A stretch of DNA of 59,680 bases, taken from positions 1 through 59,680 of IMG/VR virus record IMGVR_UViG_3300044673_000126. One strand, written 5' to 3'. Below the pieces are notes generated by a model that saw only the letters and a list, made by a program, of their open reading frames with translations, was not told where the DNA came from and searched no databases. Source of the stretch: a virus. Of the stretch, positions 1 to 59,680 are shown one piece after another. A program made the translations under genes and the position numbers. Numbering within the stretch: the first letter of the stretch is position 1; each line of letters starts with the position of its first letter.

Positions 1-243
1 ACCGGCTCTTGTCATTGACATCTGCCTCTACGACACCCGGGTCAACCTCGGTCAGGTCGGCGATATCATCGGGACCGTAGATCGCATCCTCAACGACAGA
101 CTCGGCCTCAGCCTCGGCCCCGAAGGCGCGACGGAGCTCCTCCTCTGAGGCGGGGAGCCATGCGAGGGCAGAGCGATTGACTCGCGCAATGATCTCATCG
201 AACCGGAACTCAGCATTTCGGACAGCAGTGTTGCTCTGATTCA
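1..243. repeat. Left copy of terminal overlap
   Basis: This stretch is repeated at 59438-59680 with a single difference (G at 116, A at 59553). The difference falls in the third position of an Ala codon of the giant gene, so it is silent. Because the giant reading frame continues in phase through the overlap, the two ends most likely come from a circular or circularly permuted molecule. A T7-style direct terminal repeat inside a coding frame is less likely but not excluded. Confidence 0.95.
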
Positions 244-3200
244 CAAGCTTGGTGATTTTAGCGAGACTAAGGGTCGCCTGATCAAGCTCTGCCTTGAATG
301 AGGCCTCCTGCTTCTGGAGGACTGCCATCTCTGCGATATACTCCGCAACACGCTTGCCAGATTCGGTTGTCCCAAGGGGCTGGGCCTTGCCAGACACGAG
401 CGCGGTGGTGGTGTGCTTGGATGAGGTGAGCATAGCGTCCGCGCTATTGCGCACACTCTCGATTGCCTCCGCTGCTGAGTCCAGCATCTTGGCGTATGCG
501 CGCGCGAGCCCCTTCATCTCGGCGGAGAGGCCATCGGATGCAGCGGATTCACGCAGCATGCCGGAGATGTCGCGCATAGAGCGCAGGCCGTCCTGCGCAC
601 TGGTGGTCACGGCCCGAGCGGAGTCGAATGTCCCATCCATGGCGAACGCACGGACGCTCGAAGTAAGAAGACTAATGGCCGACACACCAGCAGAGACTGC
701 TGTCCCATCGCCACTCTTTACCAGGGAAGCGATGCCGACGGGAATAGCATCGACGCGGCGCATCGCTGCATTGACGGCCTTAGCTACGCCAGCCATTGCC
801 CCAGGGGCACTCGACCGCGCACCAAAGACTTCCTTGGTCACGAGCTTGGTGAGCTCCATGATGGACGCCCTGGCATTGCCGAGCGCAGCAGATGCAGCCT
901 CATACGCAGTGTTGGCCTTTCCGAGTGCGCGGTGGGCGCGGGCAGATTCCTTCTTCGCCCTCTCGACCTCAGCCTCGGCTGGGGCGACTAGAGCCTCACG
1001 GCTTTCCGCAAGCTGCCGCGCAGCAGCCGTCCTGTCCCCCAGGCCGAGAATGTTACGGATCTCATCGAGCACGCGGACGCTTACATTCTGCTGCCCGCTT
1101 TCGTTGAAGCCCGCAAGGTTGGCATAGTAGCTCTCTGCCAAGCCGAGGGTGGCCTCTGTGAATGCTGCACGGTAAGGTTCGTTCGGGCTAGACAGGAATG
1201 CCCACTTGATGTCGCCAATGATCCCGTCCACATCGAAGGATGCTGCCCGGCGCTCAATGCCGAACCCACCCAGGACCTCGTAGATCGTCTCGCCGATAGC
1301 GTTGGCGATACGGGATGCCTCCTCGCGGGTGGAGGCAAGGGCTCGATTGGCGGCCTTGATGTTCCGCCCTTCACGGACGTTGCCCCGCTCGGCGGCGAAC
1401 ACACGGCGTCCCATGGACCTGGAGATGTAGTCCAGCATCTCCCGGGTGCCCTCGGGTGCGGCCAGGGCTACCGCGTGCATCGCACTAAAGTAGTCCTCCC
1501 GCGCGATGTTCTGAGCCTTCCACGAGTTCATCCACTCGGCCGACACCGTTGGGTCAGTCATAAGGAAGTTGGGCTTCTTCAGGGACTGGAACTCCTTGAC
1601 CGCAGCCTTGTATTTGTCCAGGGCCTCATTCACCTTCTTGGTAAGCGCGGGGTCAACCACCCTGGCAAGGATGGCGTCGTGCAGCGAAGGGAAGAACCCC
1701 TTGTGGAACAGGGTGTCTCCATAGCCTTCTGACGTATGGAGATTGGCCTCAGTGGTCTTGTGCATGGCCGCAGAGAAAGCGCCGGGAAGAGCTGCAATCA
1801 GACCAAGCTGCTCAGTCAGATCACGCACTTCCCTGACCTGCTCTGGACTAAGGACAGCCCCCTCGTCCATCAGCCCACGGTTGAAGGCGCTGATGATGCG
1901 GTCGGCCATACCATCCGCAAGCAGGGCCGTGTTCTCGAACCGAGAGGCGATGACCTTGGTCGCGTAGTCCAGAAGCTCCTGGGTTGCGCGCTCGGACTGG
2001 TTGATGGCCTTGGCGATCTGCTCGATGCTCAGGTAGGACTGAGACATGGAGTCCAGCCCGTGATACATCTTGAGCACAAGCAACTGCATGGGGGTGAGCC
2101 CATCATAGAGCTCCTGCCCGATAGTCTTTGGGTCTCGGATAGTGCTCGCATCGCCACCGAACGGTGCGCGGTTCCACGCATCGCGGATCAGCTCTGGGTT
2201 CAGGCCGAAAGCAATGTCGCGGGCATTGCCGACACCGCTGATGTAATAGCGGCCATTCTCCTGACGCAGGACACCGTCCTGAACAAGGGCCTGGGCAAGC
2301 ACGGCCATATCCTTCGTGGTCATACGCCAACCGCGCTTCACGCCAGGCTTGCTCTTACCCTTCCCGGTCGAGACGTCGTCAGATGGAGCCTCCCGGCCAC
2401 TCGTCTCGGCGTCGATGCGCTCGTTGATCCACTTCATAACAACATCACGGGACCAGACTTGCAGGGGATTGGTAACAGTATCGGTGCCCTTCTTCGCAAT
2501 GACAGACATCCATGCCGACCGCTGCTGATTGGCAAACATGCGCGCGAGCCGATACCCAAGGGTCAATGCCTTGCCCTCAGCCTTGGTGATGTCGAAGGCC
2601 GGTCCCGCCATGGCAGAGCCCTTCGTGTTGTCGGCCTCGGCACTCGGAGCAAGGCTCCGGAGGATGTCCTTGATGGCAGCCACATAGGACGGGTGCTCGA
2701 TGAGAGTGCGGGCATCACGCTCCGCCTCAGCCTCGCCACGGCTTTCCATCTGGGCATTGATACGCGCGCCCAATTTGGATGGACGAGCCTTCTCCTTGTC
2801 CTCCGGGCGTGCATACTCTGCGGCCTGGACGACGGCCTCAAGGATGATTTGTGTCGGGAGCCCGATGGAGTGACCGAAGTCGACGATACCCTTCAGGTTC
2901 TTGTTCATGGCCACGGCCATGCCGGCATTGATGGCGACACCCTCGTCACGGACACCATGAGCGCGGTCTTCGGCAATCTTCTCAAGGATGATCTTGGCTG
3001 CGTCATACATGTGAACGGTCTTCACCCGCGCGGCATACACGGCATCGCGGACAGCCCCCTCAATAGAGGCACGCTCGGACTTACTGAGGTTCATCTGGGC
3101 ATAGGCTGCGCGCGCAGCAATGGCCGTCTCGCCGCGCCACTTGACGGTGGCATTGTAGAGGGCGGCTACCGCACGGGCCATCTTCATGCTCGTGGCACCA

Positions 3201-5857
3201 TGCTTCTTCGCTGCCATCTGGAGGTGCTCTGGCATCCCACCAAGCGTGCGCCCTGGTGCGAAGTTCTTGAGGTAGTCATGGGCCGTCTGAAGGACCCACT
3301 GGCTGATGCCCGTGATCGTCTCGGTGCGTCGGCCGGAGCCAAGGTTCGGCTCACCAAGTTCCTCGGGAGACAGGGCGGAGGCCTGTGCGCTATCTGTCTG
3401 GAGCGGGTTCTCCTGGAACTTGCGGAGTTCCCGTAGCATCGCCCCGTTGCCGGGGGCGAACTTCTCTGCGACTGTCTGCTCTTCTGTAGAGTGGAGCTCC
3501 TTGCGAATGCGCTCCATCTCCTCAGCCCGAATCTGCTCTGCCTTCCAGCCAAGCCTGAGCATAGAGCGGTCCTTCTCCTGCATCAGACCAAGTGCGGCGG
3601 CCGGAGACATCTTGGCGGCGAGCTCATTGTAGGCCGTGAGTGCTGTCTCAAAAGCCTGGGAGCTGAACCGCACAGACGCGGCTCGTGCCCGTCGAGTGAT
3701 CTCCTTCACCGCCTTCTTCTTGGCGGCAGGGTCGAGTTGTCCAAGAGCCTCGATCTCCCCCTTGACCCTGGCCTGCTCTGCGGCCTTCTGCTCTGTGGCC
3801 ATGCGCGCTTCGACAGCCTCATCCACAGCCTTGCTTACCTGAAGCTGCTCGTCGATAGCAGCCCGACGCTGCTGAAGTTCGCTGTGGGCCTCTGGCAGCC
3901 TGGCCACAAGGTCTGGGTGGAGGGCCTCTTCCGTGGGCTCGGCAACCTGGGGGGCCTTCGTCTTCGCCAGGGAGTCGGCATACTCGCGTAGCCGGGTGGC
4001 CTCCTCTGGAAGCAATCCATCCATGAAGTCGCTGGCTGCGGCCTGCACGACCATGTCGCGCCGAGCGGCGAGCAGCTTGTCCGAGATGGGCTTGATGGCC
4101 TGGAGTGCAGCCTGCCCCTCTTCTGAGTTCGCGAACATCGGGTCCTGCAACTTCCGCAACGCGAGTGTGACCTGCGGGAGTGCAGCAGACTCCTCCGCCG
4201 TCAGCCCTGCGGCAGAGCGAAGAGCCTTTGTGATGAGGCCCGGCTCAATGGTATCTCCGACAGAGGCCTCGGCAGCGGACCGAACGGACGCCAATTCCCG
4301 GTATGCACCCTCTGGATCGAAGCTCCTGGCAGGCTTAACGCCGTCACCAGGCTTCACCTCGCGGAGAAGTGGAGCTTCGGGGGCGGCCTTGCGCTCGAAC
4401 GGCTTCGATCCTGCACCGACAATGCCACCTGTAATGAAGCCACCGAGGAACTCAGCGAAGGCCTCCTGGGAGAAGGCAGCCTTGCGGAAGTCCTCCCATG
4501 TGTTCTTCTCTGGATTGGCGGACATCTGGCTAATGATACGCTGGGCATACTCCTCGAAGCCCTCACCGAAGGCGTCGAGGGCGTGCTCCCCAACGTGCTT
4601 GATGCCCAACTTCTCGGCCAGAGCCAGGGCCTTCGATGTCCCCTCCTTGCCGAACTTGGCCACAGCCGTCTTCGCAAGGGCGCGCTCGGCGGCAGCAGCA
4701 GCCTCATTGGCACCAGCCTTCTTGAAGGTGGACATCATCAAGCGGCCATCGGCGAAATTGTTCGTTACCCCAAGCAAGGCCATGTTCCCAGCCAGGGTGT
4801 TTGTATATGCGCTGCCAGCCGCGGCATCAGGGTCCATCCCCTTCTGGATGGCGTTGATCCGCGCCTCGCTCGCGGCGCTCTGCGCCTCGCTCATGGCCTC
4901 TGGGAGAGAGGCAAGAACACGAGAGGCCAGCCCCGACAGGTCGACTGACATAACTCGCTTGGTAATAGGGTTGGTGAGGAGGATCTCGCCAGCACCCTCA
5001 GTTGCGCCGGCCGCGGCGCCGCCCACCATACCGCCAGACGCGACGAGTGGAATCATCTGGAAGATGTTATACGGGGCATCAGCAAGAACGCCCTTGGCCT
5101 TGCCCATCATGGACCCGTCATCATAGATCCCGGCGAAGGACGCGGACTGCTGGAGGCGCTTTGCCTCGGCATTCGCGTCGGCCATCATGCCCGTGATGGG
5201 ATCGGTGGGGCCAACAGAACGGAATGAGCGATCAGCCAGGACCTGCCCTGGGTCCATGCCCTGCTCGTGACGCTCAGTCAGCTTCCTGTCGAGATACCGG
5301 AACGCCGCCCCAGATGGGTTGAGTGGGCTACCAGCGAGTGAGATGAGGCTACGCCCACGCGTCCTGGCAACCTCCTCCCCGAGGCCGAGTCCCTGGCTCA
5401 GAATGCCACCCATCACACCACGGCCCGCGCGTCGGATCTCAGGCAATCCGCCATCCGTCTGGTCCGGGTCGTTAATGTCCTTGATATATTCGCCCTGGTA
5501 ATACTTCTCTCGCTCGACGCCCGCCTGCTTGGTCATGGCGTTGGCTCGGCGGATGAGCTGGGCATGCTGCCCTGTCGGGTCAGCCTTCGCCCGGTTAATG
5601 AACTCAGCAACTTCAGGCTGGGTCAGGGTCATGCCTGGGTTGCGACGCGCCAGGTCTGCCGCGGAGATGGCATACTCTGCCAGCTCTGCATCCGTGATCG
5701 GCGACTGCGGGTCCACTGCTGTGACATAGCTTACGCCAGGCGCACCTGGGGCAGTCGGCTGTGGTTTGGGATTGGACAAGGCAAGCGCCTCTTGCAGGCT
5801 CATGCCCTGTCCAAAGATTCCTTCATACCCACGGAGGCCGGGGTCCTGATCTGCCAT
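1..5857 (-). CDS. Giant polyvalent virion protein, N-terminal 1,952 residues
   Basis: The ATG at 5857 follows a good ribosome site (GGAG, 7 nt upstream). The frame is open to base 1 and continues in phase at 59437 down to a stop at 54111, giving 3,727 residues. This N-terminal half is Ala/Glu/Arg-rich and mostly predicted helical, with long coiled-coil-like stretches and a Gly/Ala-rich hydrophobic patch near residues 245-275. I recognise no catalytic motif in it. It sits directly after two ejection-type proteins and before the lysis genes, the usual place of giant injected phage proteins. N4-type virion RNA polymerase was considered because of size and position, but the T7-like polymerase motifs are not visible. 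Injection with the DNA is inference. Confidence 0.9.
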   Translation of the reverse strand, partial: MADQDPGLRGYEGIFGQGMSLQEALALSNPKPQPTAPGAPGVSYVTAVDPQSPITDAELAEYAISAADLARRNPGMTLTQPEVAEFINRAKADPTGQHAQLIRRANAMTKQAGVEREKYYQGEYIKDINDPDQTDGGLPEIRRAGRGVMGGILSQGLGLGEEVARTRGRSLISLAGSPLNPSGAAFRYLDRKLTERHEQGMDPGQVLADRSFRSVGPTDPITGMMADANAEAKRLQQSASFAGIYDDGSMMGKAKGVLADAPYNIFQMIPLVASGGMVGGAAAGATEGAGEILLTNPITKRVMSVDLSGLASRVLASLPEAMSEAQSAASEARINAIQKGMDPDAAAGSAYTNTLAGNMALLGVTNNFADGRLMMSTFKKAGANEAAAAAERALAKTAVAKFGKEGTSKALALAEKLGIKHVGEHALDAFGEGFEEYAQRIISQMSANPEKNTWEDFRKAAFSQEAFAEFLGGFITGGIVGAGSKPFERKAAPEAPLLREVKPGDGVKPARSFDPEGAYRELASVRSAAEASVGDTIEPGLITKALRSAAGLTAEESAALPQVTLALRKLQDPMFANSEEGQAALQAIKPISDKLLAARRDMVVQAAASDFMDGLLPEEATRLREYADSLAKTKAPQVAEPTEEALHPDLVARLPEAHSELQQRRAAIDEQLQVSKAVDEAVEARMATEQKAAEQARVKGEIEALGQLDPAAKKKAVKEITRRARAASVRFSSQAFETALTAYNELAAKMSPAAALGLMQEKDRSMLRLGWKAEQIRAEEMERIRKELHSTEEQTVAEKFAPGNGAMLRELRKFQENPLQTDSAQASALSPEELGEPNLGSGRRTETITGISQWVLQTAHDYLKNFAPGRTLGGMPEHLQMAAKKHGATSMKMARAVAALYNATVKWRGETAIAARAAYAQMNLSKSERASIEGAVRDAVYAARVKTVHMYDAAKIILEKIAEDRAHGVRDEGVAINAGMAVAMNKNLKGIVDFGHSIGLPTQIILEAVVQAAEYARPEDKEKARPSKLGARINAQMESRGEAEAERDARTLIEHPSYVAAIKDILRSLAPSAEADNTKGSAMAGPAFDITKAEGKALTLGYRLARMFANQQRSAWMSVIAKKGTDTVTNPLQVWSRDVVMKWINERIDAETSGREAPSDDVSTGKGKSKPGVKRGWRMTTKDMAVLAQALVQDGVLRQENGRYYISGVGNARDIAFGLNPELIRDAWNRAPFGGDASTIRDPKTIGQELYDGLTPMQLLVLKMYHGLDSMSQSYLSIEQIAKAINQSERATQELLDYATKVIASRFENTALLADGMADRIISAFNRGLMDEGAVLSPEQVREVRDLTEQLGLIAALPGAFSAAMHKTTEANLHTSEGYGDTLFHKGFFPSLHDAILARVVDPALTKKVNEALDKYKAAVKEFQSLKKPNFLMTDPTVSAEWMNSWKAQNIAREDYFSAMHAVALAAPEGTREMLDYISRSMGRRVFAAERGNVREGRNIKAANRALASTREEASRIANAIGETIYEVLGGFGIERRAASFDVDGIIGDIKWAFLSSPNEPYRAAFTEATLGLAESYYANLAGFNESGQQNVSVRVLDEIRNILGLGDRTAAARQLAESREALVAPAEAEVERAKKESARAHRALGKANTAYEAASAALGNARASIMELTKLVTKEVFGARSSAPGAMAGVAKAVNAAMRRVDAIPVGIASLVKSGDGTAVSAGVSAISLLTSSVRAFAMDGTFDSARAVTTSAQDGLRSMRDISGMLRESAASDGLSAEMKGLARAYAKMLDSAAEAIESVRNSADAMLTSSKHTTTALVSGKAQPLGTTESGKRVAEYIAEMAVLQKQEASFKAELDQATLSLAKITKLVNQSNTAVRNAEFRFDEIIARVNRSALAWLPASEEELRRAFGAEAEAESVVEDAIYGPDDIADLTEVDPGVVEADVNDKSR

Positions 5858-10004: not shown

Positions 10005-11558
10005 CTACACCGGCTTCGCCGAGCCAGAGCAGACTGCGGATGAGTTGACCTTCAAGAACCACAGGACTGGATACACGGCGTCGTCCAGGAAGTGCCGTGC
10101 TTGCGCAGTGCCATTCTGACCTCGCGTCACCCCGGTGGCCGTGGTGCCAGAGGCTGCCGCGTAGGTGAACTGCTCTGTCCCGATGATGAAGTCGCCTCCA
10201 GTGGGTTCGAGCCCGACCACTGTGTCGAAGGTAACAGTGGAGTAGGTGGAGGTGTCGTCCATCACGGTCTGGAGCTTGATGCCAGAGACTCCGCTCGGGG
10301 TTGGTGCCAATGTAGTCATAGCTGCGGCCTCGTTCGGCTCCGACCCATACCACTTGTGGATGTCTGGCAGGTTAATGGCCGGGATGAATCGGATGGACTG
10401 CGAGTAGTAAGAGGAGCTTGACATGACCTTTGCCGGAACGGACATCGGTGCGGTTTTGAACTGGGCAACACCGAGGGTCGGCATCACCGGAATGGTGTTG
10501 ATGTCGTCGCGCTCAAGCAGCCCGGAAAAGGTGAGCGCATCGCCGTAGCAGTAGCCGACGCCGCTCTTGTAGGAAACCCCGCCGTCGCTGACACGCCGTG
10601 GGATCATCCCACCAGTGAACGAATGCGCATCACCGTAGGCCTCGCCAACGCTGTAGATGTAGGTTGCGTCGGTGTTGGGAACAGTTTGCGTCCCATAACT
10701 GGTTGGCAGAATCCACCAGTGGGTGGGACGGCCCTTCGCGGTCCCAGCGCCGTCGCTGAGATTGCCCACGATCAGCTCAATGGGTGTGCAGAGATCGCCC
10801 GCATTCTCCGGCATGACTGCCAGCGCTTCCGCGTGATCAACGTAGCTCGCGAAGATCTGCCCCGTCACGCCAGAAAGGCACTTGGTCCCGATGGTGAAGG
10901 AGCGCGACCACACGTCCATGTAGTAGACGAACCCATTGGTAAGGTCGGTGGTGATGCCGAACCCAAGGCTCACGTCCACCTTGGCGTAGCTGCTCCTGGC
11001 ACCAGACAGGACCGGTGCGTCAAGCGCTGCATAGGTTACGTTCGCGTTGCTGCTGATGGTGACAGCGGCAGTAACAGTCTTCTTCGTGGCGACCAGTGTG
11101 TTGGTGCCGTTATACCAGAAGCTCCATCCAGTGATCGTCGCGTCCACGCTGTCGCGAAGCGCGTAGTAGAGCGCTCGAAGATTGTCGTTGGCCGTGGCCC
11201 CAGCGCCACCGGTCGCGCCGGTCACCGTCACACCACCGATGGTTACAGCGTCCGCTACAGCACCACCATTCAACGCGGTGAGTTGGAAGCTCTGTGGGAG
11301 CGCGTCGGAGATGCACTCCTGGTAGCTGCCAATCTTGATCGTCACGTTGTCCGGGAAGTAAATCCTCGTCACCTCTCTGAACTTCGAGGTGCCGATGGTC
11401 TCGGTAGCCGGGGGGATCACGTCCGACCAGTTGCCGTCCGACTGCGCGAGAAGCTGCCAGCCGTTGGTCGTCAGATTCCCGACGAGGGCATTCTGCATCT
11501 GCAAGATGGAGTAGCCGAGTGGGATGCTGTCGAAATAGGGTGCGAGAAACTGGGACAT
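10005..11558 (-). CDS. Putative tail/adhesin structural protein, 517 aa
   Basis: A 517-residue protein rich in Thr, Ser, Gly, Ala and Val with long beta-strand-like stretches. A Gly/Thr-rich repeat-like section at about residues 100-125 is typical of tail fibres and Ig-like virion domains, and cysteines are few. The ATG at 11558 is well placed, and the gene follows the collagen-repeat fibre by 10 nt. A host-recognition or tail decoration role is inferred from composition and neighbours. Confidence 0.65.
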   Translation of the reverse strand: MSQFLAPYFDSIPLGYSILQMQNALVGNLTTNGWQLLAQSDGNWSDVIPPATETIGTSKFREVTRIYFPDNVTIKIGSYQECISDALPQSFQLTALNGGAVADAVTIGGVTVTGATGGAGATANDNLRALYYALRDSVDATITGWSFWYNGTNTLVATKKTVTAAVTISSNANVTYAALDAPVLSGARSSYAKVDVSLGFGITTDLTNGFVYYMDVWSRSFTIGTKCLSGVTGQIFASYVDHAEALAVMPENAGDLCTPIELIVGNLSDGAGTAKGRPTHWWILPTSYGTQTVPNTDATYIYSVGEAYGDAHSFTGGMIPRRVSDGGVSYKSGVGYCYGDALTFSGLLERDDINTIPVMPTLGVAQFKTAPMSVPAKVMSSSSYYSQSIRFIPAINLPDIHKWYGSEPNEAAAMTTLAPTPSGVSGIKLQTVMDDTSTYSTVTFDTVVGLEPTGGDFIIGTEQFTYAAASGTTATGVTRGQNGTAQARHFLDDAVYPVLWFLKVNSSAVCSGSAKPV

Positions 11559-48692: not shown

Positions 48693-49184
48693 ATGACCAA
48701 AAAGAGAGAGGCACTGCCGAGGGTTTTCCATCGCATCATCAAGCCGGGTGAGCAGATTGACTGGGGAGACCCATCGGTCCAGGACCTGGTCGATGCGAAC
48801 GATGGCCTGTGTGCGCAACTGAACGTAGTCCGAGGCCGCCTCGCCCAGCGTGACCGCGAGGTTCTGGGATTGACCGAAGCGCTGGGTAAGGTGCGGGAGG
48901 AGATCGGCGGTTGTCTTGAGCGTGATGCTGCGGCATTCATGCGAATGACCCTCGCGGAGTCAGATGCCTGGGGTATCGCACGGCACAACCAGAGCCACGG
49001 CTACGTCTTGGACACGATCAAGGCCGCCCTCGCCTCCACCGCCCAGGCCGGGGCAGAGGCCGAGCGCAAGGTGCTGGAAGCCGCGTGGGAGCGGTTGCTT
49101 GCCGCGTTCCCACCGGATGGCGTAGATGGTGAAGTGGTGAAGGCTGCCAAGTCCGCCATCCTCGGCACGAAGGGTATGGGATGA
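48693..49184 (+). CDS. Hypothetical protein, 163 aa
   Basis: ATG at 48693, 3 nt after the previous stop. A long Ala/Glu/Arg-rich protein with two probable coiled coils (about residues 35-75 and 115-150). It overlaps the next phosphoesterase start (ATGA). Unrecognised. Confidence 0.55.
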   Translation: MTKKREALPRVFHRIIKPGEQIDWGDPSVQDLVDANDGLCAQLNVVRGRLAQRDREVLGLTEALGKVREEIGGCLERDAAAFMRMTLAESDAWGIARHNQSHGYVLDTIKAALASTAQAGAEAERKVLEAAWERLLAAFPPDGVDGEVVKAAKSAILGTKGMG

Positions 49185-49995: not shown

Positions 49996-50294
49996 TGCCA
50001 GAGCAAAGGGGCGCCCTGCTCGCCGACTGCCGGGCGGTAGCCGAGGCAATGGGCGGGGCATGCCTGTCAACGGAATACATTAACGCCAAGACCAAGATGC
50101 GTTGGCGGTGTGAGAACGGGCACGAGTGGGAGGCCACACCACACAATGTCAGGCATGCGACATGGTGCCCACACTGCTATGCTGAACGTCGCGGGTCCGT
50201 CCCCGGGCGCTACCCGGCGTGCTCCGAGAACGGCATCCTGGGCTACACCAATGAACAGATCGAGGCGATGGCCTCCGGAGGGTCGAATGGGTAA
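49995..50294 (+). CDS. Treble-clef zinc-ribbon protein, 99 aa
   Basis: ATG at 49995 with AAGGGG upstream. The segment MRWRCENGHEW...WCPHC at about residues 34-60 matches the zinc-ribbon domain often linked to restriction or homing nucleases and to phage accessory proteins. It ends overlapping the next gene. No nuclease domain is attached here. Confidence 0.6.
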   Translation: MPEQRGALLADCRAVAEAMGGACLSTEYINAKTKMRWRCENGHEWEATPHNVRHATWCPHCYAERRGSVPGRYPACSENGILGYTNEQIEAMASGGSNG

Positions 50295-50502
50295 GAAACA
50301 ACTTTCCATCCACGTCAGGGGGAACTCGAAGGAGTGGTCCTTCACCTTCTTGGGGGATCCCAGATGCCTGGCCGAGTGGCGTGCAGATGGCCTTGAGATC
50401 GACGAGGTCTTGAACACCATCCCCACGTGGGTCCCCGCTTCTATGATCCGTCCTTGGTGCATCGTCCAGGACATAGTCAACTTCAAGTGGCCGTGGGCCT
50501 AA
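50287..50502 (+). CDS. Hypothetical protein at head of cassette array, 71 aa
   Basis: ATG at 50287, overlapping the previous gene. The 71-residue product (SIHVRGNSKEWSFTFLGDP, ending VNFKWPWA) is unrecognised. Its stop codon lies inside GCCTAAC, the first core of the first attC site, just as cassette genes end. Yet the core expected at the start of such a cassette is not visible upstream, so it may be a native phage gene to which cassettes were added. Confidence 0.55.
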   Translation: MGKKQLSIHVRGNSKEWSFTFLGDPRCLAEWRADGLEIDEVLNTIPTWVPASMIRPWCIVQDIVNFKWPWA

Positions 50503-50630
50503 CGCCACAGCTAACCGGCCCCGCCGGAGAAAGGGAAGAAATGAGGATCGGAGATGTAGCAAATAATCCAGGACTGTTGCCTGGGGGAGAAACACCCAAG
50601 GCGGGGTCCGAGTTGAGCGGAGGGTTGGGC
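50497..50630 (+). repeat. attC site A (134 nt)
   Basis: Cores GCCTAAC (50497-50503) and GTTGGGC (50624-50630). The arm CGGCCCCGCC pairs with GGCGGGG-T-CCG, and GCTAAC with GTTGAGC. The central loop is long (about 75 nt) and holds a ribosome site and an ATG. Confidence 0.85.
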
Positions 50631-50846
50631 GAGGTCTTCAAGATCGAGTACCGGCTGACCCTCGATTTTCAGGCCACCTCGCTTGAGGGCATCAAAGCCC
50701 GCCTTCCGAAGGGAGCCCAGATCCTCGCCATCAACGACCGCGAGTTCGTGTCTTTCTGCGAGGCGTGCGGCAAGCCCATCTGCGAAGGCGACGGGTGGCA
50801 CCAGGCAGAAGATGTTTACCTTTGTCGCCCCTGCGGCGATGAGTAG
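50541..50846 (+). CDS. Zinc-ribbon cassette protein, 101 aa, start uncertain
   Basis: The frame is open from the ATG at 50541 (GGGAAGAA upstream, in the loop of attC A) through the attC 3' arm into cassette 2. The C-terminus (FCEACGKPICEGDGWHQ, YLCRPCGDE) holds a four-Cys zinc ribbon. If cassette 2 was translated alone it would start nearer 50630, but no clear start is seen there. So this protein may be a fusion made by cassette insertion. Unrecognised role. Confidence 0.55.
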   Translation: MRIGDVANNPGLLPGGETPKAGSELSGGLGEVFKIEYRLTLDFQATSLEGIKARLPKGAQILAINDREFVSFCEACGKPICEGDGWHQAEDVYLCRPCGDE

Positions 50847-50847
50847 C

Positions 50848-50908
50848 GCCCAACGCCCGGAGCTAGCTCGGCCCCGCAGGGGTCCGACGCTGAGCGACAT
50901 GGTTAGAC
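50848..50908 (+). repeat. attC site B (61 nt)
   Basis: Cores GCCCAAC (50848-50854) and GTTAGAC (50902-50908). CCCC-GCA-GGGG forms the tip, then an unpaired T and CCGA/TCGG. It directly follows the stop of cassette 2's gene. Confidence 0.85.
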
Positions 50909-50940
50909 CGCGAATAGAAACCAACCAAAGGAGGACCGGC

Positions 50941-51210
50941 ATGAGCGATGCCAACAATTTCACGACCAACCCCGTGCTGCTGGAGGTTGCCGCCGAGCGC
51001 AACCGGCAGGACGGGAAGTGGGGCACGGCGCAGGACGACAAAAATAACCCACTCGACTGGCACGAAATCATCGCCGACTACAACGGGTGGGCACGGCGGA
51101 TGCTCTGCATGGGGAGCATTGACAAGGGGCGTCGGCGACTGATCCAGGTCGCGGCCATCGCTGTGGCCGCCGTGGAAGCACTTGATCGGCGATTCCCGAG
51201 AGCGGTCTAA
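50941..51210 (+). CDS. Cassette protein, 89 aa
   Basis: AAAGGAGG sits upstream of the ATG at 50941, and the stop TAA lies inside the core of attC C. The helical segment LLEVAAERNRQDGKWGTAQ, then LIQVAAIAVAAVEALDRR, matches a small family common in phages and cassettes that resembles MazG-like nucleotide hydrolases in layout. Function not proven. GC content is near that of the phage. Confidence 0.65.
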   Translation: MSDANNFTTNPVLLEVAAERNRQDGKWGTAQDDKNNPLDWHEIIADYNGWARRMLCMGSIDKGRRRLIQVAAIAVAAVEALDRRFPRAV

Positions 51211-51301
51211 CGACTCAAGCGCACCGGCCCTGCCGCAGGTGAGCCACAACCTTTCAAATATCGGACTTGCGGCAGGGTCCGAGTGGAGCGCTGGGTTGAG
51301 C
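51205..51301 (+). repeat. attC site C (97 nt)
   Basis: Cores GTCTAAC (51205-51211) and GTTGAGC (51295-51301). CCCTGCCGCA pairs perfectly with TGCGGCAGGG (10 bp), then an unpaired T and CGG/CCG. Confidence 0.85.
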
Positions 51302-51323
51302 GCAACCTTGAGGGAGAGGCTAA

Positions 51324-51512
51324 GTGAGAATCGAAATACAGAGGAATGAAAGCAGCCTACCAATTATCTATGGAAATGCTATCAACGCATTTACAAAGGG
51401 GCAGATGTATTGCGTCCTCTTCGAGCACAACCAATCGAGAGTGACCCATAAATTCCCACTGTCCTCGATATTCAGGGTTATTGAGGATTACCCAGACAGT
51501 AAGCGGGATTAG
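51324..51512 (+). CDS. AT-richer cassette protein, 62 aa
   Basis: GTG start at 51324 with GGGAG upstream. The 62-residue product (SSLPIIYGNAINAFTKGQMY, ending VIEDYPDSKRD) is unrecognised. Its codons are clearly AT-richer than those of all neighbours, a sign of separate origin. It ends 1 nt before attC D. Confidence 0.6.
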   Translation: MRIEIQRNESSLPIIYGNAINAFTKGQMYCVLFEHNQSRVTHKFPLSSIFRVIEDYPDSKRD

Positions 51513-51513
51513 C

Positions 51514-51572
51514 GCCCAACTTTCGAGCTAACCGGCGCCGTCAGGCGTCCGGGTTGAGCGAGCCGGTTAGCC
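51514..51572 (+). repeat. attC site D (59 nt)
   Basis: Cores GCCCAAC (51514-51520) and GTTAGCC (51566-51572). 59 nt is the classic attC length. CGCC-GTCA-GGCG forms the tip; unpaired T before CCGG. The sixth core base is C rather than a purine, and the next half-site has the matching change. Confidence 0.8.
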
Positions 51573-51601
51573 GAGCCACGACGAAAACAAAAGGAGAAAA
51601 C

Positions 51602-51817
51602 ATGGAAGCAACCTTCAAAGTAAAACTCAAGCCGTTCACTGTCCCGAATTATGTCTTGGTCGATTTGCCCCCCGGCAAACGGGAGGATGGTTTTACGGAA
51701 GGGCCGAAGTATCGTCTTGAGGATCTGGACCCAGTGACACTCGAAGCCATGTGTGACGAGTTCCGCGATGCAGTGTTCGGTAAGGCGAAGAAGTCACGCC
51801 CGCCCATGGTCGGCTAA
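51602..51817 (+). CDS. Cassette protein, 71 aa
   Basis: AAAAGGAG upstream of the ATG at 51602. Unrecognised 71-residue protein (KVKLKPFTVPNYVLVDLPPG, ending AKKSRPPMVG). Its stop lies inside GGCTAAC, the half-site E. Last cassette gene before tRNA-Pro. Confidence 0.6.
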   Translation: MEATFKVKLKPFTVPNYVLVDLPPGKREDGFTEGPKYRLEDLDPVTLEAMCDEFRDAVFGKAKKSRPPMVG

Positions 51818-51818
51818 C
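51812..51818 (+). repeat. attC half-site E (truncated)
   Basis: GGCTAAC is the exact complement of the core that starts this cassette (GTTAGCC), but no partner core or second arm is found downstream. The array therefore ends in a broken attC, probably where cassettes joined phage DNA. Confidence 0.65.
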
Positions 51819-51840
51819 TTTGTACTAGGCGAACTAACAC

Positions 51841-51917
51841 CCGCGAGTAGCTCAGTCTGGTGGAGCGCCTGCTTTGGGGGCAGGGGGTCGCAGGTTCAAA
51901 TCCTGTCTCGCGGACCA
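51841..51917 (+). tRNA. tRNA-Pro (anticodon TGG)
   Basis: 77 nt: acceptor CCGCGAG/CTCGCGG, D-arm GCTC/GAGC with long loop, anticodon stem CCTGC/GCAGG with loop TTTGGGG (TGG, reads CCA), T-arm CAGG/CCTG, encoded ACCA. Directly after the cassette array. Confidence 0.95.
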
Positions 51918-52682: not shown

Positions 52683-52703
52683 CCTCTAGGAGAAGTGCCG
52701 GTA

Positions 52704-52734
52704 GGGGAGGGCCTTCGGGCTCTCCCCTTTTTTT
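52704..52734 (+). terminator. Strong intrinsic terminator ending right arm
   Basis: A 10-bp stem (GGGGAGGGCC with GGCTCTCCCC) closed by a TTCG tetraloop and followed by seven T. It lies where the two arms converge; the left-arm spanin gene ends 6 nt beyond. Confidence 0.95.
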
Positions 52735-53613: not shown

Positions 53614-54111
53614 TCAGGACTCCTGCCAGACTTTGATCAATGGGTATGTCCTGACCTTCCGTCCATTCACATTAACATAGACCTCGCCGCGGATCTGCCG
53701 GCGCGGCTGGCTAGCACTCATCCCAACATGAACGCACCCACGTTCAAGGATGAGCTGGTCGATGAGTCGCATGATGCTCGGTGTTGCTTGTATGGCGGCG
53801 AACAGCGCTTCTACCTTCCCATTCATGGGGTAGATGTCGGCAGCCAGCCCATCACAGTGGGCACTCGTGGAGCTTGCACCAGGAATGGCCGCGTTAAGTG
53901 TGACCCCGCGGAACCCAGAGTGCAGCGACCCACCCTTAACCTTCTCGCTCATGCTCCCAGGCCATAGCTTCTCCGCCAATTCAAACACCATGTCGGCGAC
54001 GGGCATCAGGATGTTGCGGATGTTGGCTTCCTGCTGTGCGCTGGGACGGTTCTGGATCCCCATACGCGCAGCGGTCTCAGAGTATAGGTAGTCTTCGTAG
54101 CTGAACCCCAT
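53614..54111 (-). CDS. M15-type peptidase endolysin, 165 aa
   Basis: ATG at 54111 overlaps the giant gene's stop; a GTG at 54114 is also possible. SGFR at about 67-70, then SAHCDGLAADI at about 85-95 (His and Asp zinc ligands) and ERGCVHVGM near 130 (His ligand) are the signature of M15 D-Ala-D-Ala carboxypeptidase-like endolysins, which cut peptidoglycan cross-links. No signal peptide is visible, so export depends on the holin. Confidence 0.85.
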   Translation of the reverse strand: MGFSYEDYLYSETAARMGIQNRPSAQQEANIRNILMPVADMVFELAEKLWPGSMSEKVKGGSLHSGFRGVTLNAAIPGASSTSAHCDGLAADIYPMNGKVEALFAAIQATPSIMRLIDQLILERGCVHVGMSASQPRRQIRGEVYVNVNGRKVRTYPLIKVWQES

Positions 54112-57100
54112 CACTCACCCCCGCCCATACGCTCCTCGACCAGCGACTCGTTGCGGAGCTCCTCCTCCATGCGCCTCGAACCACTGCCCACGTTCGGGAC
54201 AATGATCATGTCTGGGCGCTTGATGTTGCTCATTGCATCGTTCCATGCCCGGATCTCATTCCAGTTCTTCTCTGTAAGATTCCCGTTTTCAAACGCCTGC
54301 TTGAGCCGCTTGATAGCACTGGAGCGCTCGTCCTTAAGCTGACGGTTCGCGGCGTCCTGCTCATAGATCATGGCAGTCTTCTGTGGCGTCACTCCAATGG
54401 CCTTCGCGGCGCGCTCGGCGGGGGTCATCTGGTAGAACTCCTCTGTCCCGCGCATAGGCTTTCTGCCAGGGGCATGCCGCCCGATCCAGAAGGCATCAAC
54501 CAGGTTGGCTGCTCCGGATGGTGCCGCGATCTGGGCCACACCACCGACATAGTCCCCCTGCTCGATCCTTCTGGACCCACGGCGGAGGCTCTCGACAGCA
54601 CCAGTGTTGGCGCCAAGCGACAGGTTGGCGAGGTTCTCCTGCCAACTCTTGTGCGTGTCCACAGAGACTGGGCCCTCACCCATGCTCAACTGAGCGCCGA
54701 AACCATAGAGCGGCGGGATCAACCCGAAGATGCCGGCCGCGGCGAAGCTGGCTGTGCGTGGGCCAAACTTCTCGCGGACCCACTCAATGTAGTCGCGCTT
54801 GACGTCATGGATCGGGGGCTTCCCGCTGATCCTGGAGAGAAGGTTCCAGATGTATGACATCAGGTCCGCCAGCAAGCCGGCAAGTGGGGGGCCGAAGCTG
54901 CCGCCAAGGAGCATCGCGGCGAGCGCACCGTAGGCAGTGCTCTTCATGGAGGCCACCGTGGCAACGGACGCGTGTCGTCCCTCGGCTTCGAGCCGACGAG
55001 CAGTGATGCCCATGTCAGAGATCCACCCACGCAGCACGTTGATGGGGTAGAGCCGGAACAGGACCACCGTCTTCATGAACGCAGCAGACCGGCCGTTCCC
55101 CTCTGGGTTCCAGATCTTCTCATTGCCGAACCCACGCCCCGTATTGAAGTTGGCGTGCGCCGACTGACGCTGGGCGAACGTCATGATCCGGTTGTAGGCC
55201 TCGTCCTTGGTCATCGCTTCGAGCTGGGCCTTGGTGACATCGCTGTTCCGATACCGCTGGGCGAGCTCCTGGCGGACTTGGGCCTCCAGGTCGCCATAGG
55301 TCAGGCGGGAGTAACCCTCGTCCGAGATGGAGACGTAGCCATACTGCGCCCAGATGCCAGTTTTCTTCCCGGCGCTCTTGGCCCTGGACTCAGTAGCTGC
55401 ACCGACAACGTAGGACACGATGTCTCGGATGCGGTTGAGGTTCTCCCCCTTGTTGGCAACGTAGGTGAGGATATCCTTGGTTCCTTCCTTCGCCTGAGAG
55501 AGCTTAGTGGTGTGCGTCGCTCGGCTGATGTCATTGGCCGCAACATCCTCCACGCCAATCTGCATACCGACGTTCACATCTTTGAAGCTAGAGCCCTGGA
55601 TGACTCGGTGCATGACCTCCTTCACGATGGGCCGCATGCGGTCAGCCTCTTCCTGGGTTGCCCAGATCTTGGAGAAATTCTGGAAAGAGAAGATCTCATC
55701 CATGCGCGCATCAAGCACGGCCCTGTCGATCATAGACAGATCCGCGCCAGGCTTGGCCATCAGCGCCAGTAGCTTCACGGCTGCATTCTCAGAGGCCCTG
55801 ATGAGCGGCTCAGTGTAGCCAGTGTCATACATGGCCATCATGTGGGGGCGGCTGGTTGTGAACTGCTGGAAATACTGCGCGGCGCCAAAGGAGATCTTCG
55901 CCATCAGCGCCTTGTAGGCTGTGAACGTGCGGAGCGCGTTGAATGCACCGACAACGCCATCCGCACTGCGCTGCGGAGCGAATGTCGCAAGTGTGTAGTT
56001 CAGGAGCTGGTCGTAGTCCTTCTGGGAGAGCCCATCGGACACTTCAACATGGCGACGGTAGGCGTTGAGCTCCTCGCGGAGGTCGCCTGCGTAGAGGAGG
56101 GACCCTGCCATGTAGCCGGCGGCCCGGCCGTGCATAGAGAGCGCACCGATGATGTCCTCGGAGTAGCCAGCGGTGTTGTTGCGCGCATACTTCAGGCGCC
56201 CCTTGATGTCGGAGGCGCCGGCCATGTAGCGCAAGTCACGGAGCATCGCGCTACGGGCATCCCCAGAGACGCCACCGGCACGATTGTCGATGATCTCCTG
56301 TAGAACTTCGGTGGTGAGCATGCCACCAGCCATCTTGACGAACTTCAGATGGTCATTGTCGCGGAGCTCGCCGCTGTTGGACTCAACGAATCGCCCCTCG
56401 AAGTGATGCCCGAACTTGATTCGGCCAGCCTCGATGTCCTTGCGGAGCTGTGCCTCGATACGATCCGGACTTCCAACGCGGTCAGCCTCTGCCCACAGCT
56501 TGTTCGCGTGCTGCCGAACCATCTGGTCAATAGCAAGCCCCCGGACATCATCCGGGATCTTTGTCTCGCTGTGGCCGGTATCGACCATGATCATACCGAT
56601 GCGATTGCCGTCGGCATCTACCATGTCGAGCTGGCGCGTGGCCTTCTCGTTGCGGAGCAGGGAGATGAAGACGGGGTTCTTCTGGATGATGGAGCGCAAA
56701 GTGTCTGTCTCATCCTCAAACTCGGATACCTTCTTCTCCAGGGCCATGAACTGCTCGTCAAACTTCTCATCTGCTGGGTCCAGCGCGTTCTGCTCGTCGC
56801 GCAACTGGGCCACCTTCGACATGGCCTCTCGGTCGAGGGCTGCCAGGGTCACCTTCTGGATGCCGCGGATGACGTCAACCACCTTGCGGTAGAGCTTCGA
56901 GCCCTCCTCGTCAAGGCCGTATCGGTTGGCAAGCTCCGCCCCATTGATGACCCGTTCCTGGACGCTGCTGTCCATCAGGGCACGTCCGAGCATGGTATAG
57001 GACTGCCCGTCTGTGTCGCGCAGGGAGGCCAGGGCCTTGAGTGTTGGCTGGAGCCCACCCACGATGGAGTCAGCGGCGTGCCGATACATCAGTGCCAGGT

Positions 57101-59680
57101 GCATGATGCGCGTCTGGTGGTCGGTCTTGAACTGGTGGACAAACTGGAGGAACTTGCGGCCCTCGGCCAGGATGGGGGATCGCCGCGCGCGCGTGGACAG
57201 CCGGTCCTTGGCCCAAGCCATTGTCTTCCCGAGCACATCGTCGATGAGACCGTCCATCTCGCGGAGGTCGATGCCGCTGTTCACATACAGGAGACCGCCA
57301 TCCGCCCCCTTGCCGGCCTTGACGAGCTCACCCTCAAGGCCGTCCTCGAAGTTGATGATGTCCTCGTTGCTAACAGACTCACCACTGACGAAGGCAATCG
57401 GGCCGTCCTCTAATACCTCGGGGTTGCTGGCGTGGAGAACCAGCTCTCCCCCGGCTGTGGCCTGAAGCCTTTGGCTCCGCTCTTCCGGAGTGATATACCC
57501 CGCCTGAGTGACGCCAGAAAGCCACTGTGAGATGTTGCCGTTGATGTCGGACTGGATCCATCCTCGGACTGCGTCCTTGAGGCTTCCGGCATTCCATCCT
57601 TCGCCATCATAGTTCCCCTCCAGCATGTCACTCGCGATGTTGCGGTATCGTTCGGCAATAACCTTCTTGTCCAGGGTGGCGGCCAACCCTTCCAGGCGCT
57701 TGAGCGCAGCATCTCCGGCATACTCATTCCCGGTGGAGTCGTCGATCACAACAAGATCTCCAGACAGCCCACCACGCTTGACCTCTGCGATGACATTCTT
57801 CATGCCGTTCACCAACGCCGTGGCAAAGCCGTCAGAGTAGGTGAGTCTCTCTTCCTGTGCACCACGGACAATGGCACCAGTGATCATGTCGTTAAGGTTC
57901 CGCAGGACATAGACGATGTCAGTTCGTGCACCGGCCTTCTGCGCCTGGGAGACAGCGCTTGCGAGGGTATTGGCCGCGAACGCAGAGGTCTCGTGCATGA
58001 CTGCATAGGTCTCAAGGGCAGCAGAGGACCCCATGAAGGTCGTCTTGCCGGCGCCGTTACCGCCCACCACGATAGCTACGTTCTGCCCGTTACGCGCAGC
58101 CTGACGGAACTGGTGCTCCATCACCCGGTTGAACGCGGCGCCAACACCATGGGGCAGGTTCTCTACCCATGCCAGCGCGCCACCACCCGGATGGATCAGC
58201 TTGTCACGGACAATGTCGAACGAGAAGACGCGCCCACCATGCGTGGCCGGGGTGTTCTTATAGATGCCCCAGAACACGGACGGACGAGACAGCTTCTGGG
58301 CGGCGGCCATGAGCCTGGCCTTACCCTCTGGGGTGAAGTAGCCGGCCCTGTCAGACGCTGGGCTCTGGAGCTCCTGCTGCGTCAAGCTGCGGTTCTCCTC
58401 TGTGCGGCTACCACCATCGGGGTGGCCACCGTCCTTGAACATGGCGGCCATCAACCGGGACGTATAGACGCCGATGCCCTTGGCAAAACCACGGATCTTG
58501 GCAGAGAGCTGGGACACAGTGTTGGATGTATTAGCCTTGATGCGCTCCATCACGGATCTGAATGTTGGGTTCTGCATCCCCAGCTTGTAGCCGAGGTAAG
58601 CGATGCCCGCACCCAGGAGGATGGCTGCACCCTCAGGGCTGGACTGAGACAGGCCCATCACACCAACCAGGTCGACCCCAAGCGCCACGCCAGCGGATGC
58701 GTGCGCACCCTCCCTGGACCCACCAGTGAGAAGGCGCTGTGCTTCCTCCCGGATGCTTGGGTCAGCGTTGCCGGGGCCAACTTCCCGGAGATACATCTGG
58801 ACCTGGTTGTAGATGCGGAGACGATCAGCCTGCCCAAGGTTCTGGGCCTGCGCCTGTCGGATGGCGTCGAGCACTCGGCGACCAGATGCCGCCCGGTCGG
58901 GCTGACCTTCAAGCGTTTCCTCCTGGATGACCGTAGGCTCTTCCTTCGCGCTCTGCTCTTGGAGCACGGCGGCGACAGAGCTTTCACGCTGACTGGCGAG
59001 AGTCTCGATGGCGGCGGCGTCCACCTCGACAGTGTTGATCCTCTTGCCTGTCAATGCCTCGACGGCATGGGTCGCCATCATGTAGTTAAGGCTGGCGTCG
59101 CGCCCAGGGGTAACCGCATCTAGAGCCGCCGAGATGTCAGTGATAGTCGCATCAATGTCGGTGATGTCGCCCTGCAAGAGCCTGGCGTGCTTCGCACTAC
59201 CTGCCAGCTCGGCAAGCGCGGCGATACCAAACTGCATCTTGGTTGTGTCCTCGATGGAGATGCCAGCCGCTTCGGACTCATTGATGAGGGTCTCGATGGC
59301 CTCGTTGGCTGCACGGACGTTCGCACCGGCCGCACCTGGGACGGTGCCCTTGAGTAGGCGCGTGGCGATAGCAGTAAGGGTGCTGGCCGGCAGCCGGATA
59401 CCGCTGGCCTTGATCTCCCTCGCGAGGATGCGGGAGGACCGGCTCTTGTCATTGACATCTGCCTCTACGACACCCGGGTCAACCTCGGTCAGGTCGGCGA
59501 TATCATCGGGACCGTAGATCGCATCCTCAACGACAGACTCGGCCTCAGCCTCAGCCCCGAAGGCGCGACGGAGCTCCTCCTCTGAGGCGGGGAGCCATGC
59601 GAGGGCAGAGCGATTGACTCGCGCAATGATCTCATCGAACCGGAACTCAGCATTTCGGACAGCAGTGTTGCTCTGATTCA
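54111..59680 (-). CDS. Giant polyvalent virion protein, C-terminal 1,857 residues, zeta-toxin-like domain
   Basis: Continuation of the gene that starts at 5857 across the circular joint. Counted on the whole protein, a P-loop GGNGAGKTT lies at about residues 2410-2418, YVLRNLNDMITGAIVRGAQE at about 2460-2480 and VVIDDSTGN at about 2516-2524, the order seen in zeta-toxin-type kinases. A hydrophobic stretch lies near 2200-2240. The C-terminal 500 residues include AKAIGVTPQKTAMIYEQDAA and a membrane-like segment (LLGGSFGPPLAGLLADLMSY), features of large polyvalent proteins. The zeta domain may act in the host cell after injection; this is inference. The window-end cut is artificial. Confidence 0.85.
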   Translation of the reverse strand, partial: NQSNTAVRNAEFRFDEIIARVNRSALAWLPASEEELRRAFGAEAEAESVVEDAIYGPDDIADLTEVDPGVVEADVNDKSRSSRILAREIKASGIRLPASTLTAIATRLLKGTVPGAAGANVRAANEAIETLINESEAAGISIEDTTKMQFGIAALAELAGSAKHARLLQGDITDIDATITDISAALDAVTPGRDASLNYMMATHAVEALTGKRINTVEVDAAAIETLASQRESSVAAVLQEQSAKEEPTVIQEETLEGQPDRAASGRRVLDAIRQAQAQNLGQADRLRIYNQVQMYLREVGPGNADPSIREEAQRLLTGGSREGAHASAGVALGVDLVGVMGLSQSSPEGAAILLGAGIAYLGYKLGMQNPTFRSVMERIKANTSNTVSQLSAKIRGFAKGIGVYTSRLMAAMFKDGGHPDGGSRTEENRSLTQQELQSPASDRAGYFTPEGKARLMAAAQKLSRPSVFWGIYKNTPATHGGRVFSFDIVRDKLIHPGGGALAWVENLPHGVGAAFNRVMEHQFRQAARNGQNVAIVVGGNGAGKTTFMGSSAALETYAVMHETSAFAANTLASAVSQAQKAGARTDIVYVLRNLNDMITGAIVRGAQEERLTYSDGFATALVNGMKNVIAEVKRGGLSGDLVVIDDSTGNEYAGDAALKRLEGLAATLDKKVIAERYRNIASDMLEGNYDGEGWNAGSLKDAVRGWIQSDINGNISQWLSGVTQAGYITPEERSQRLQATAGGELVLHASNPEVLEDGPIAFVSGESVSNEDIINFEDGLEGELVKAGKGADGGLLYVNSGIDLREMDGLIDDVLGKTMAWAKDRLSTRARRSPILAEGRKFLQFVHQFKTDHQTRIMHLALMYRHAADSIVGGLQPTLKALASLRDTDGQSYTMLGRALMDSSVQERVINGAELANRYGLDEEGSKLYRKVVDVIRGIQKVTLAALDREAMSKVAQLRDEQNALDPADEKFDEQFMALEKKVSEFEDETDTLRSIIQKNPVFISLLRNEKATRQLDMVDADGNRIGMIMVDTGHSETKIPDDVRGLAIDQMVRQHANKLWAEADRVGSPDRIEAQLRKDIEAGRIKFGHHFEGRFVESNSGELRDNDHLKFVKMAGGMLTTEVLQEIIDNRAGGVSGDARSAMLRDLRYMAGASDIKGRLKYARNNTAGYSEDIIGALSMHGRAAGYMAGSLLYAGDLREELNAYRRHVEVSDGLSQKDYDQLLNYTLATFAPQRSADGVVGAFNALRTFTAYKALMAKISFGAAQYFQQFTTSRPHMMAMYDTGYTEPLIRASENAAVKLLALMAKPGADLSMIDRAVLDARMDEIFSFQNFSKIWATQEEADRMRPIVKEVMHRVIQGSSFKDVNVGMQIGVEDVAANDISRATHTTKLSQAKEGTKDILTYVANKGENLNRIRDIVSYVVGAATESRAKSAGKKTGIWAQYGYVSISDEGYSRLTYGDLEAQVRQELAQRYRNSDVTKAQLEAMTKDEAYNRIMTFAQRQSAHANFNTGRGFGNEKIWNPEGNGRSAAFMKTVVLFRLYPINVLRGWISDMGITARRLEAEGRHASVATVASMKSTAYGALAAMLLGGSFGPPLAGLLADLMSYIWNLLSRISGKPPIHDVKRDYIEWVREKFGPRTASFAAAGIFGLIPPLYGFGAQLSMGEGPVSVDTHKSWQENLANLSLGANTGAVESLRRGSRRIEQGDYVGGVAQIAAPSGAANLVDAFWIGRHAPGRKPMRGTEEFYQMTPAERAAKAIGVTPQKTAMIYEQDAANRQLKDERSSAIKRLKQAFENGNLTEKNWNEIRAWNDAMSNIKRPDMIIVPNVGSGSRRMEEELRNESLVEERMGGGE
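59438..59680. repeat. Right copy of terminal overlap
   Basis: Same sequence as 1-243 apart from one base (A at 59553, G at 116; silent). It closes the genome at about 59,437 unique bases. Confidence 0.95.

Follow-up and report, generated by a model that had tools for sequence, protein, structure and literature searches.

A reversed, integrase-less integron cassette array in a virulent-looking phage and its probable use of a Geothrix/Holophagaceae-type host integrase

Clusters of attC sites without an intI gene (CALINs) have been described in virulent phages such as Tetrasphaera phage TJE1, and attC sites of TJE1 and other phages were recombined into attI1 by IntI1 in the assay of the same study (Qi et al., 2023, PMC9892861). 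The array described here resembles these phage-borne CALINs in being an attC cluster with intI absent (PMC9892861). It differs from TJE1 in orientation, since the genes of TJE1 follow the canonical attC polarity in the present analysis; a pattern scan of the TJE1 locus (L016) gave three attC-like sites within 244–1519, with canonical gene polarity. As far as Qi et al. was searched, neither reversed genes nor start codons within attC sites are mentioned there (PMC9892861). Class 1 mobile integrons are similar to the array in their G^TT core, in attC sites with paired extrahelical bases and, as far as the attI-like site goes, in a sequence of the AAACAAAGTTRRRY kind, the core known from class 1 attI (PMC12901181), but their genes are canonical, intI1 is present and the cargo is resistance genes. 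The chromosomal integrons of Geothrix and other Holophagaceae (Acidobacteriota) have the same attC arms as the phage arrays and an attI closely similar to the putative attI of the phages. These integrons contain intI, their genes are canonical (287:15, see below) and their high-scoring attC sites are mostly 124 bp long, whereas the phage arrays lack intI, have reversed genes and have attC sites of about 55 to 134 bp. Phage anti-defence gene clusters are also known, and the cargo of the phage arrays (Tad2, Lar, Mom, DNA methylases) resembles theirs; unlike the genes of those clusters, the genes here are individually framed by recombination sites.

The window, meaning the whole 59,680-bp stretch analysed, is IMG/VR virus record IMGVR_UViG_3300044673_000126. 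It encodes terminase (TerL), portal/head-tail and internal virion proteins, which identifies it as a phage genome. In agreement with an earlier sequence-only reading of this DNA, which had claimed that an integron integrase is absent, profile searches of the record found neither such an integrase (TIGR02249) nor any other tyrosine recombinase/integrase (PF00589). With virion and packaging genes present and a tyrosine integrase absent, the phage is virulent-looking. Positions 1–5857 and 54111–59680 form a single minus-strand reading frame of 3,809 aa when the ends are joined, which makes it probable that the record is a genome close to completeness, in permuted form. The array recurs unchanged in a second viral contig (L003) from a different IMG/VR sample and is thus not an assembly accident. 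With four tandem attC sites, where at least two are needed, and no integron integrase, it is a CALIN; a complete integron would have an intI gene, which the window lacks. As in integron cassettes, each attC has its R and L boxes and bears a pair of extrahelical bases on a single arm; the usual, though not strictly defining, placement of the gene along attC polarity is absent, all of the cassette genes being reversed. Outside the array, positions 48839–49065 are 96.5% identical over 227 bp to 10447–10673 of another viral locus (L024) with an unrelated backbone, a similarity that reflects recent exchange without attC. The features of the array and its neighbours, with E values from two attC covariance models, are as follows.

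50287–50502, plus strand: gene 1 (71 aa), at the distal edge of the array; TAA stop within the first core; no family match.
50497–50630, minus strand: attC A, 134 bp; first model E 5e-13, second model E 5e-12; crossover core 50497–50503.
50541–50846, plus strand: gene 2 (101 aa), beginning within attC A; CxxC zinc-ribbon-like C-terminus.
50848–50908, minus strand: attC B, 61 bp; first model E 5e-8; same type in L028 and L122.
50941–51210, plus strand: gene 3 (89 aa), phrog_2831-like (E 1e-12); stop within the core.
51205–51301, minus strand: attC C, 97 bp; first model E 3e-8; sites in L028 and L179 are 88–90% identical.
51324–51512, plus strand: gene 4 (62 aa, GTG start), phrog_10299 (E 1e-23).
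51514–51572, minus strand: attC D, 59 bp; first model E 3e-7.
51602–51817, plus strand: gene 5 (71 aa); the terminal core forms its stop.
51812–51837, minus strand: attI-like site, minus-strand TTAGTTCGCCTAGTACAAAG^TTAGCC; crossover between 51818 and 51817.
51841–51917, plus strand: tRNA-Pro(TGG), adjoining the attI-like site.
52703–52728, plus strand: intrinsic-terminator-like hairpin of 11 pairs with a T tail, a consensus match only, which would close the rightward transcription unit.

The four complete attC sites claimed by the sequence-only reading were borne out by a pattern scan (RYYYAAC...GTTRRRY plus arm pairing) and by the two covariance models, the check that it had itself named. In the scan, A, C and B rank top among the attC-like sites of the whole window, and dinucleotide shuffles yielded 0.02 sites per genome at roughly the score of attC B; the strict pattern overlooks attC D because its core is GTTAGCC, and relaxed cores score it. 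The first covariance model, trained on 12 bacterial attC arms, matches A, C, B and D exactly, with nothing further at E ≤ 10 in the window. The second model leaves out three training arms with prophage-like 98-bp sites (L116, and L122 twice) and matches the same four window sites alone (E 5e-12 to 5e-5), so that the four-site outcome is independent of those arms. Applied to twelve unrelated phage loci, the second model gave two weak matches only (E 0.13 and 0.37), the former being a TJE1 attC that the pattern scan detects too. Complementarity between the cassette-start core and the core of its own attC, claimed earlier as three exact and one 6 of 7, is 7/7, 7/7, 6/7 and 7/7. An integron-type cassette array in a phage lacking the integrase is thereby confirmed by the attC models and the integrase searches. 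The arms of attC A are nearly identical to those of Geothrix chromosomal attC sites, and gene 2 has its start codon in the attC A loop. In the prophage array of G. fuzhouensis SG12 (L122), one attC matches attC D at 98.3% identity over 58 bp. In attC D a competing hairpin is possible between GGCTAACCGG and CCGGTTAGCC and might lower recombination. When single sites were folded thermodynamically, only attC C stood out clearly from its shuffles, so the strand was assigned from the covariance models and the extrahelical bases.

Because an attC is nearly palindromic, its cores alone give no direction. Integrases recognise unpaired bases on one attC arm, classically T-N6-G, on the folded bottom strand (PMC3053210). 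In class 1 controls the top-strand unpaired bases stand in the 5' arm in gene sense; at all four window sites, T and G are unpaired in the 3' arm, with a spacing, as read from the sequence, of T-N7/8-G rather than T-N6-G. The position of the T and G, together with the minus-strand location of all four covariance-model matches in the window, where the genes lie on the plus strand, indicates that the attC sites point against the genes. The unpaired T before CCG, noted earlier at all four sites, is indeed there, but it lies in the 3' arm with an unpaired G, as the recombinogenic bottom strand's T...G pair, and hence marks the opposite polarity. With minus polarity, the coding (plus) strand becomes the predicted recombining strand.

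The earlier cassette borders and direction have to be given up in consequence: minus-strand polarity assigns attC A–D to genes 2–5 and not to the upstream genes. In the predicted cassettes, attC A, B, C and D are joined to genes 2, 3, 4 and 5, respectively (circles of 298, 309, 357 and 351 bp), and gene 1 would be flanking phage DNA beyond them. The array would then consist of an attI-like site and four minus-strand cassettes, each with its attC 5' of an antisense gene. Gene 2 and its homologue in L024 (11767–12054, 84% identical over 97 aa) both begin within their attC, which fits one cassette containing gene and attC. Across homologous pairs the gene bodies are common and the attC loops differ, so that the cassette borders are blurred; co-inheritance of a gene with its 5' attC exceeds that with its 3' attC in four of five scorable pairs and is lower in one, which is weak evidence.

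The right end of the array had been read as the half-site of a fifth attC. It is better described as an attI-like junction than as a damaged attC, as it gives the top score in the window (28.3, the next best on both strands being 7.5) with a matrix built from six other phage sites, the window site excluded, and its core is of the kind known from class 1 attI (PMC12901181). What follows 51812–51818 is found again at the corresponding end of other phage arrays. Of the 13 Geothrix/Holophagaceae intI loci examined, nine have G^TT-core sites that the same matrix scores at 12–25, and the other four, some of which are short, gave no good match. Recognition of the motif was post hoc, from the window and three further phages; motif searches uncovered new arrays, L191 and then L237, and a second site in the phage contig G003, which thus has two attI-like sites (L179 1469 and L024 11124), each heading its own array. 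In L028 the site is degenerate. About 16 further matches to the attI pattern were discarded as chance look-alikes, having a common in-frame NFxxGELVP coding context and mostly no array. Just past the attI-like site, L024, L028, L232 and L233 contain a common element around GCAACCCCAGCGAATCCAGC, in most of them flanked by a GAACCGC/GCGGTTC inverted repeat.

Bacterial matches of the attC pattern fall mainly in Geothrix and other Holophagaceae, and those outside this family include probable binning errors. That public MAG contigs named Puia sp. (L106, a whole array, mostly canonical) and Bifidobacterium breve (L083) fit the Holophagaceae-type attC pattern suggests that these MAGs contain binning errors. 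By sequence comparison, the attC type of the window belongs to Geothrix/Holophagaceae integrons, and from the attC and attI types together we infer a host of this kind for the phage. A full IntI was found in 13 of 14 Geothrix/Holophagaceae-type genomes searched (451–471 bits); the 14 viral records yielded none. The phage integrases of G001 and G003 do not qualify as IntI (26–40 bits against a cut-off of 265). The G. fuzhouensis SG12 isolate has both an IntI and a reversed-array prophage (L122; contig NZ_JANHMQ010000002.1, about 330.8–334 kb), with terminase, portal and head protease genes nearby. A MAG containing L047 also has an IntI and a reversed-array prophage, with a portal gene nearby, and the L064 contig has the reversed layout in a genome without IntI above the cut-off.

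Further viral contigs were gathered by pattern scans of IMG/VR, and the reversed layout is present in 14 viral contigs besides the window, in the SG12 prophage, in the MAG prophage and in one MAG contig. The viral contigs contain 98 attC sites bounding 81 internal cassettes, whose genes are reversed in 76 cases; the five called canonical are all on GTG starts, and strict-margin gene calls in viral contigs give 58 reversed to 2 canonical. Bacterial integron loci gave 287 canonical and 18 reversed genes, three of the latter being those of the L122 prophage (15:287 without them). Reversed calls in one bacterial locus, L039, proved to be ORF artefacts. The orientation contrast between viral and bacterial arrays is itself plain, although its Fisher p of 3e-50 overstates independence, because the arrays have common ancestry and the contigs were found through similar attC sites. 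The stops of 59 of the 76 reversed genes lie at -6, -5, +2 or +3 nt from the next core.

The reading that we favour, with good but not complete confidence, is an integrase-less integron in a virulent-looking phage, acted on in trans by a Geothrix/Holophagaceae-type host IntI. The sites, their polarity, the attI-like motif, the absence of IntI and the sharing between phages come from the DNA itself; from these we infer recombination by the host IntI, selection on orientation and functions for the window genes. The substrate of host IntI would be the bottom strand in folded form, in this case the coding strand, with cassettes inserted and excised at the G^TT of the attI-like site; the predicted empty junction is GTGGGCCTAA joined to CTTTGTACTAGGCG. 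As the attI-like site faces against transcription, new cassettes would be added at the downstream end of the phage transcription unit. Phage promoters would express cassette genes only in the orientation opposite to attC polarity, so that reversed cassettes would be selected. The 5' attC may provide a ribosome-binding site, a start codon and an N-terminal leader. Across the phage group, the arrays would hold small genes open to exchange, including several for anti-defence.

An alternative is a fossil array, in which an old integron capture was spread between phages by homologous recombination and no IntI acts now. This is unlikely but deserves weighing, as it would account for viral records without an integrase, for homologous genes flanked on both sides by different attC loops, and for the single near relative having the same array. 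No pair of near-identical phages differing in cassettes was found, the sole close relative being L003; distant tail-fibre relatives (L004–L012) gave no attC by pattern scan, so that an empty-site comparison is impossible; and isolated phages searched by DNA with the window array matched at tRNA-Pro only, among the best matches listed. Nearly all of the approximately 98 sites have kept their cores, extrahelical bases, stem pairing and register, and a conserved attI-like site adjoins arrays, which speaks against a fossil. The fossil reading also fits poorly with L024, L028, L232 and L233, which differ in their cassettes despite a common flank past the attI-like site. Window positions 50604–50877 are 93.4% identical in DNA to L024 over 274 bp, and cassette DNA of L232 and G003 is 95.3% identical over 232 bp, both between unrelated backbones; identical leaders are joined to different gene bodies across phages. 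As judged from these sequences, cassette sharing among unrelated phages shows movement, whatever the mechanism. Cassettes and attC sites do occur in unrelated phages, in line with the earlier suggestion that phages may move cassettes; the idea of phages as cassette carriers had already been published (Qi et al., 2023, PMC9892861).

It is improbable that phage operons have put the attC hairpins to use in translation initiation or as mRNA elements, with mobility secondary or lost. Many attC loops do hold a ribosome-binding site and a start codon, 24 of the 76 reversed genes begin within an attC, and the same leaders (MT[N/K]QNAPEAGSESSA; ..VAGPDGSELSEGLGA) are fused to different gene bodies. However, the other 52 begin after the attC, and a role in translation leaves the conserved cores, the T...G extrahelical bases and the attI-like site unexplained. 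At least four distinct gene bodies carry the attC-encoded leader MT[N/K]QNAPEAGSESSA as an in-frame fusion (L024 12683–12922, L064 108–275, L228 1586–1849 and two cassettes of L122).

Even less credible are ordinary plus-strand cassettes, with gene followed by attC and a truncated fifth attC at the end. The symmetric core complementarity suits this reading as well as the reversed one, but the strand-specific models match the minus strand only, the extrahelical bases sit in the 3' arm, the right end resembles attI and not a broken attC, and gene 2 would be cut because it begins within attC A. Misassembly of host DNA into a phage contig can be given practically no credence, since the attC type is indeed that of bacterial chromosomes but the same locus is present in a second viral contig (L003) and 14 more viral contigs have the reversed layout, which is rare in bacterial chromosomes.

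For gene 3, the L022 array has a homologue at its edge (53%); the AF2 model of gene 3 is all-helical (pLDDT 80), and the structure matches of this model are small helical proteins only, some MazG-related, at levels common for helical bundles. For gene 5 no relatives were found, and the single-sequence structure model is poor (pLDDT 54). Gene 4 is 70.5% identical to Sinorhizobium phage proteins, and neither the pattern scan nor the attC models found attC sites at those loci. The sequence-only reading had named the same genes without core pairing in related phages from distant hosts as evidence against it, and this was found in part, for gene 4; given the attC model matches in the window, it shows that gene 4 occurs outside cassettes too. 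Across the group, 71 cassette proteins were searched for families (Pfam cut-off; PHROGs). Above the Pfam cut-off were Tad2 (anti-Thoeris), Lar twice (restriction alleviation), Mom once and a C5 DNA methylase; Acb2/Tad1 and a second Mom fell below it, and the PHROGs search adds several DNA methyltransferases. Most of the 71, including the four of the window, were assigned no function by Pfam or PHROGs. The earlier suggestion of anti-defence functions therefore holds for several cassettes elsewhere in the group (Tad2, Lar, Mom), whereas the window's four match none of these; an anti-defence role for them is a guess, because it is based only on the company that their cassettes keep.

Phage attC clusters being already known, the novel part is the layout, reversed, equipped with an attI-like site and integrase-less, which was not found in the literature searched. 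That search covered the open literature and few subscription papers; neither reversed cassettes in phages nor start codons within attC nor integrons of Geothrix turned up in it. A broader proposal, to which we give even chances, is that Geothrix-type phages evolved an integron platform of their own, with an attI-like site, reversed cassettes readable by phage transcription alone, the host's integrase, exchange of anti-defence genes among otherwise unrelated phages and an attC that serves as the gene start.

Research on integrons has treated them as devices by which bacteria capture genes, and the phage examples known so far resembled pieces of them carried along. The consistent finding of the reversed form in two prophages and 15 viral contigs, often with an attI-like site, suggests that the host integrase is exploited by phages, and that a separate phage cassette pool exists in which genes are shuffled. 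One specific prediction is recombination of the coding strand, and the idea is testable now, as the G. fuzhouensis SG12 isolate has both the integrase and a reversed-array prophage. The arrays are a candidate route for anti-defence genes between unrelated phages. Bacterial integrons are stores of defence genes; if the proposal is true, the phage platform would be their mirror image.
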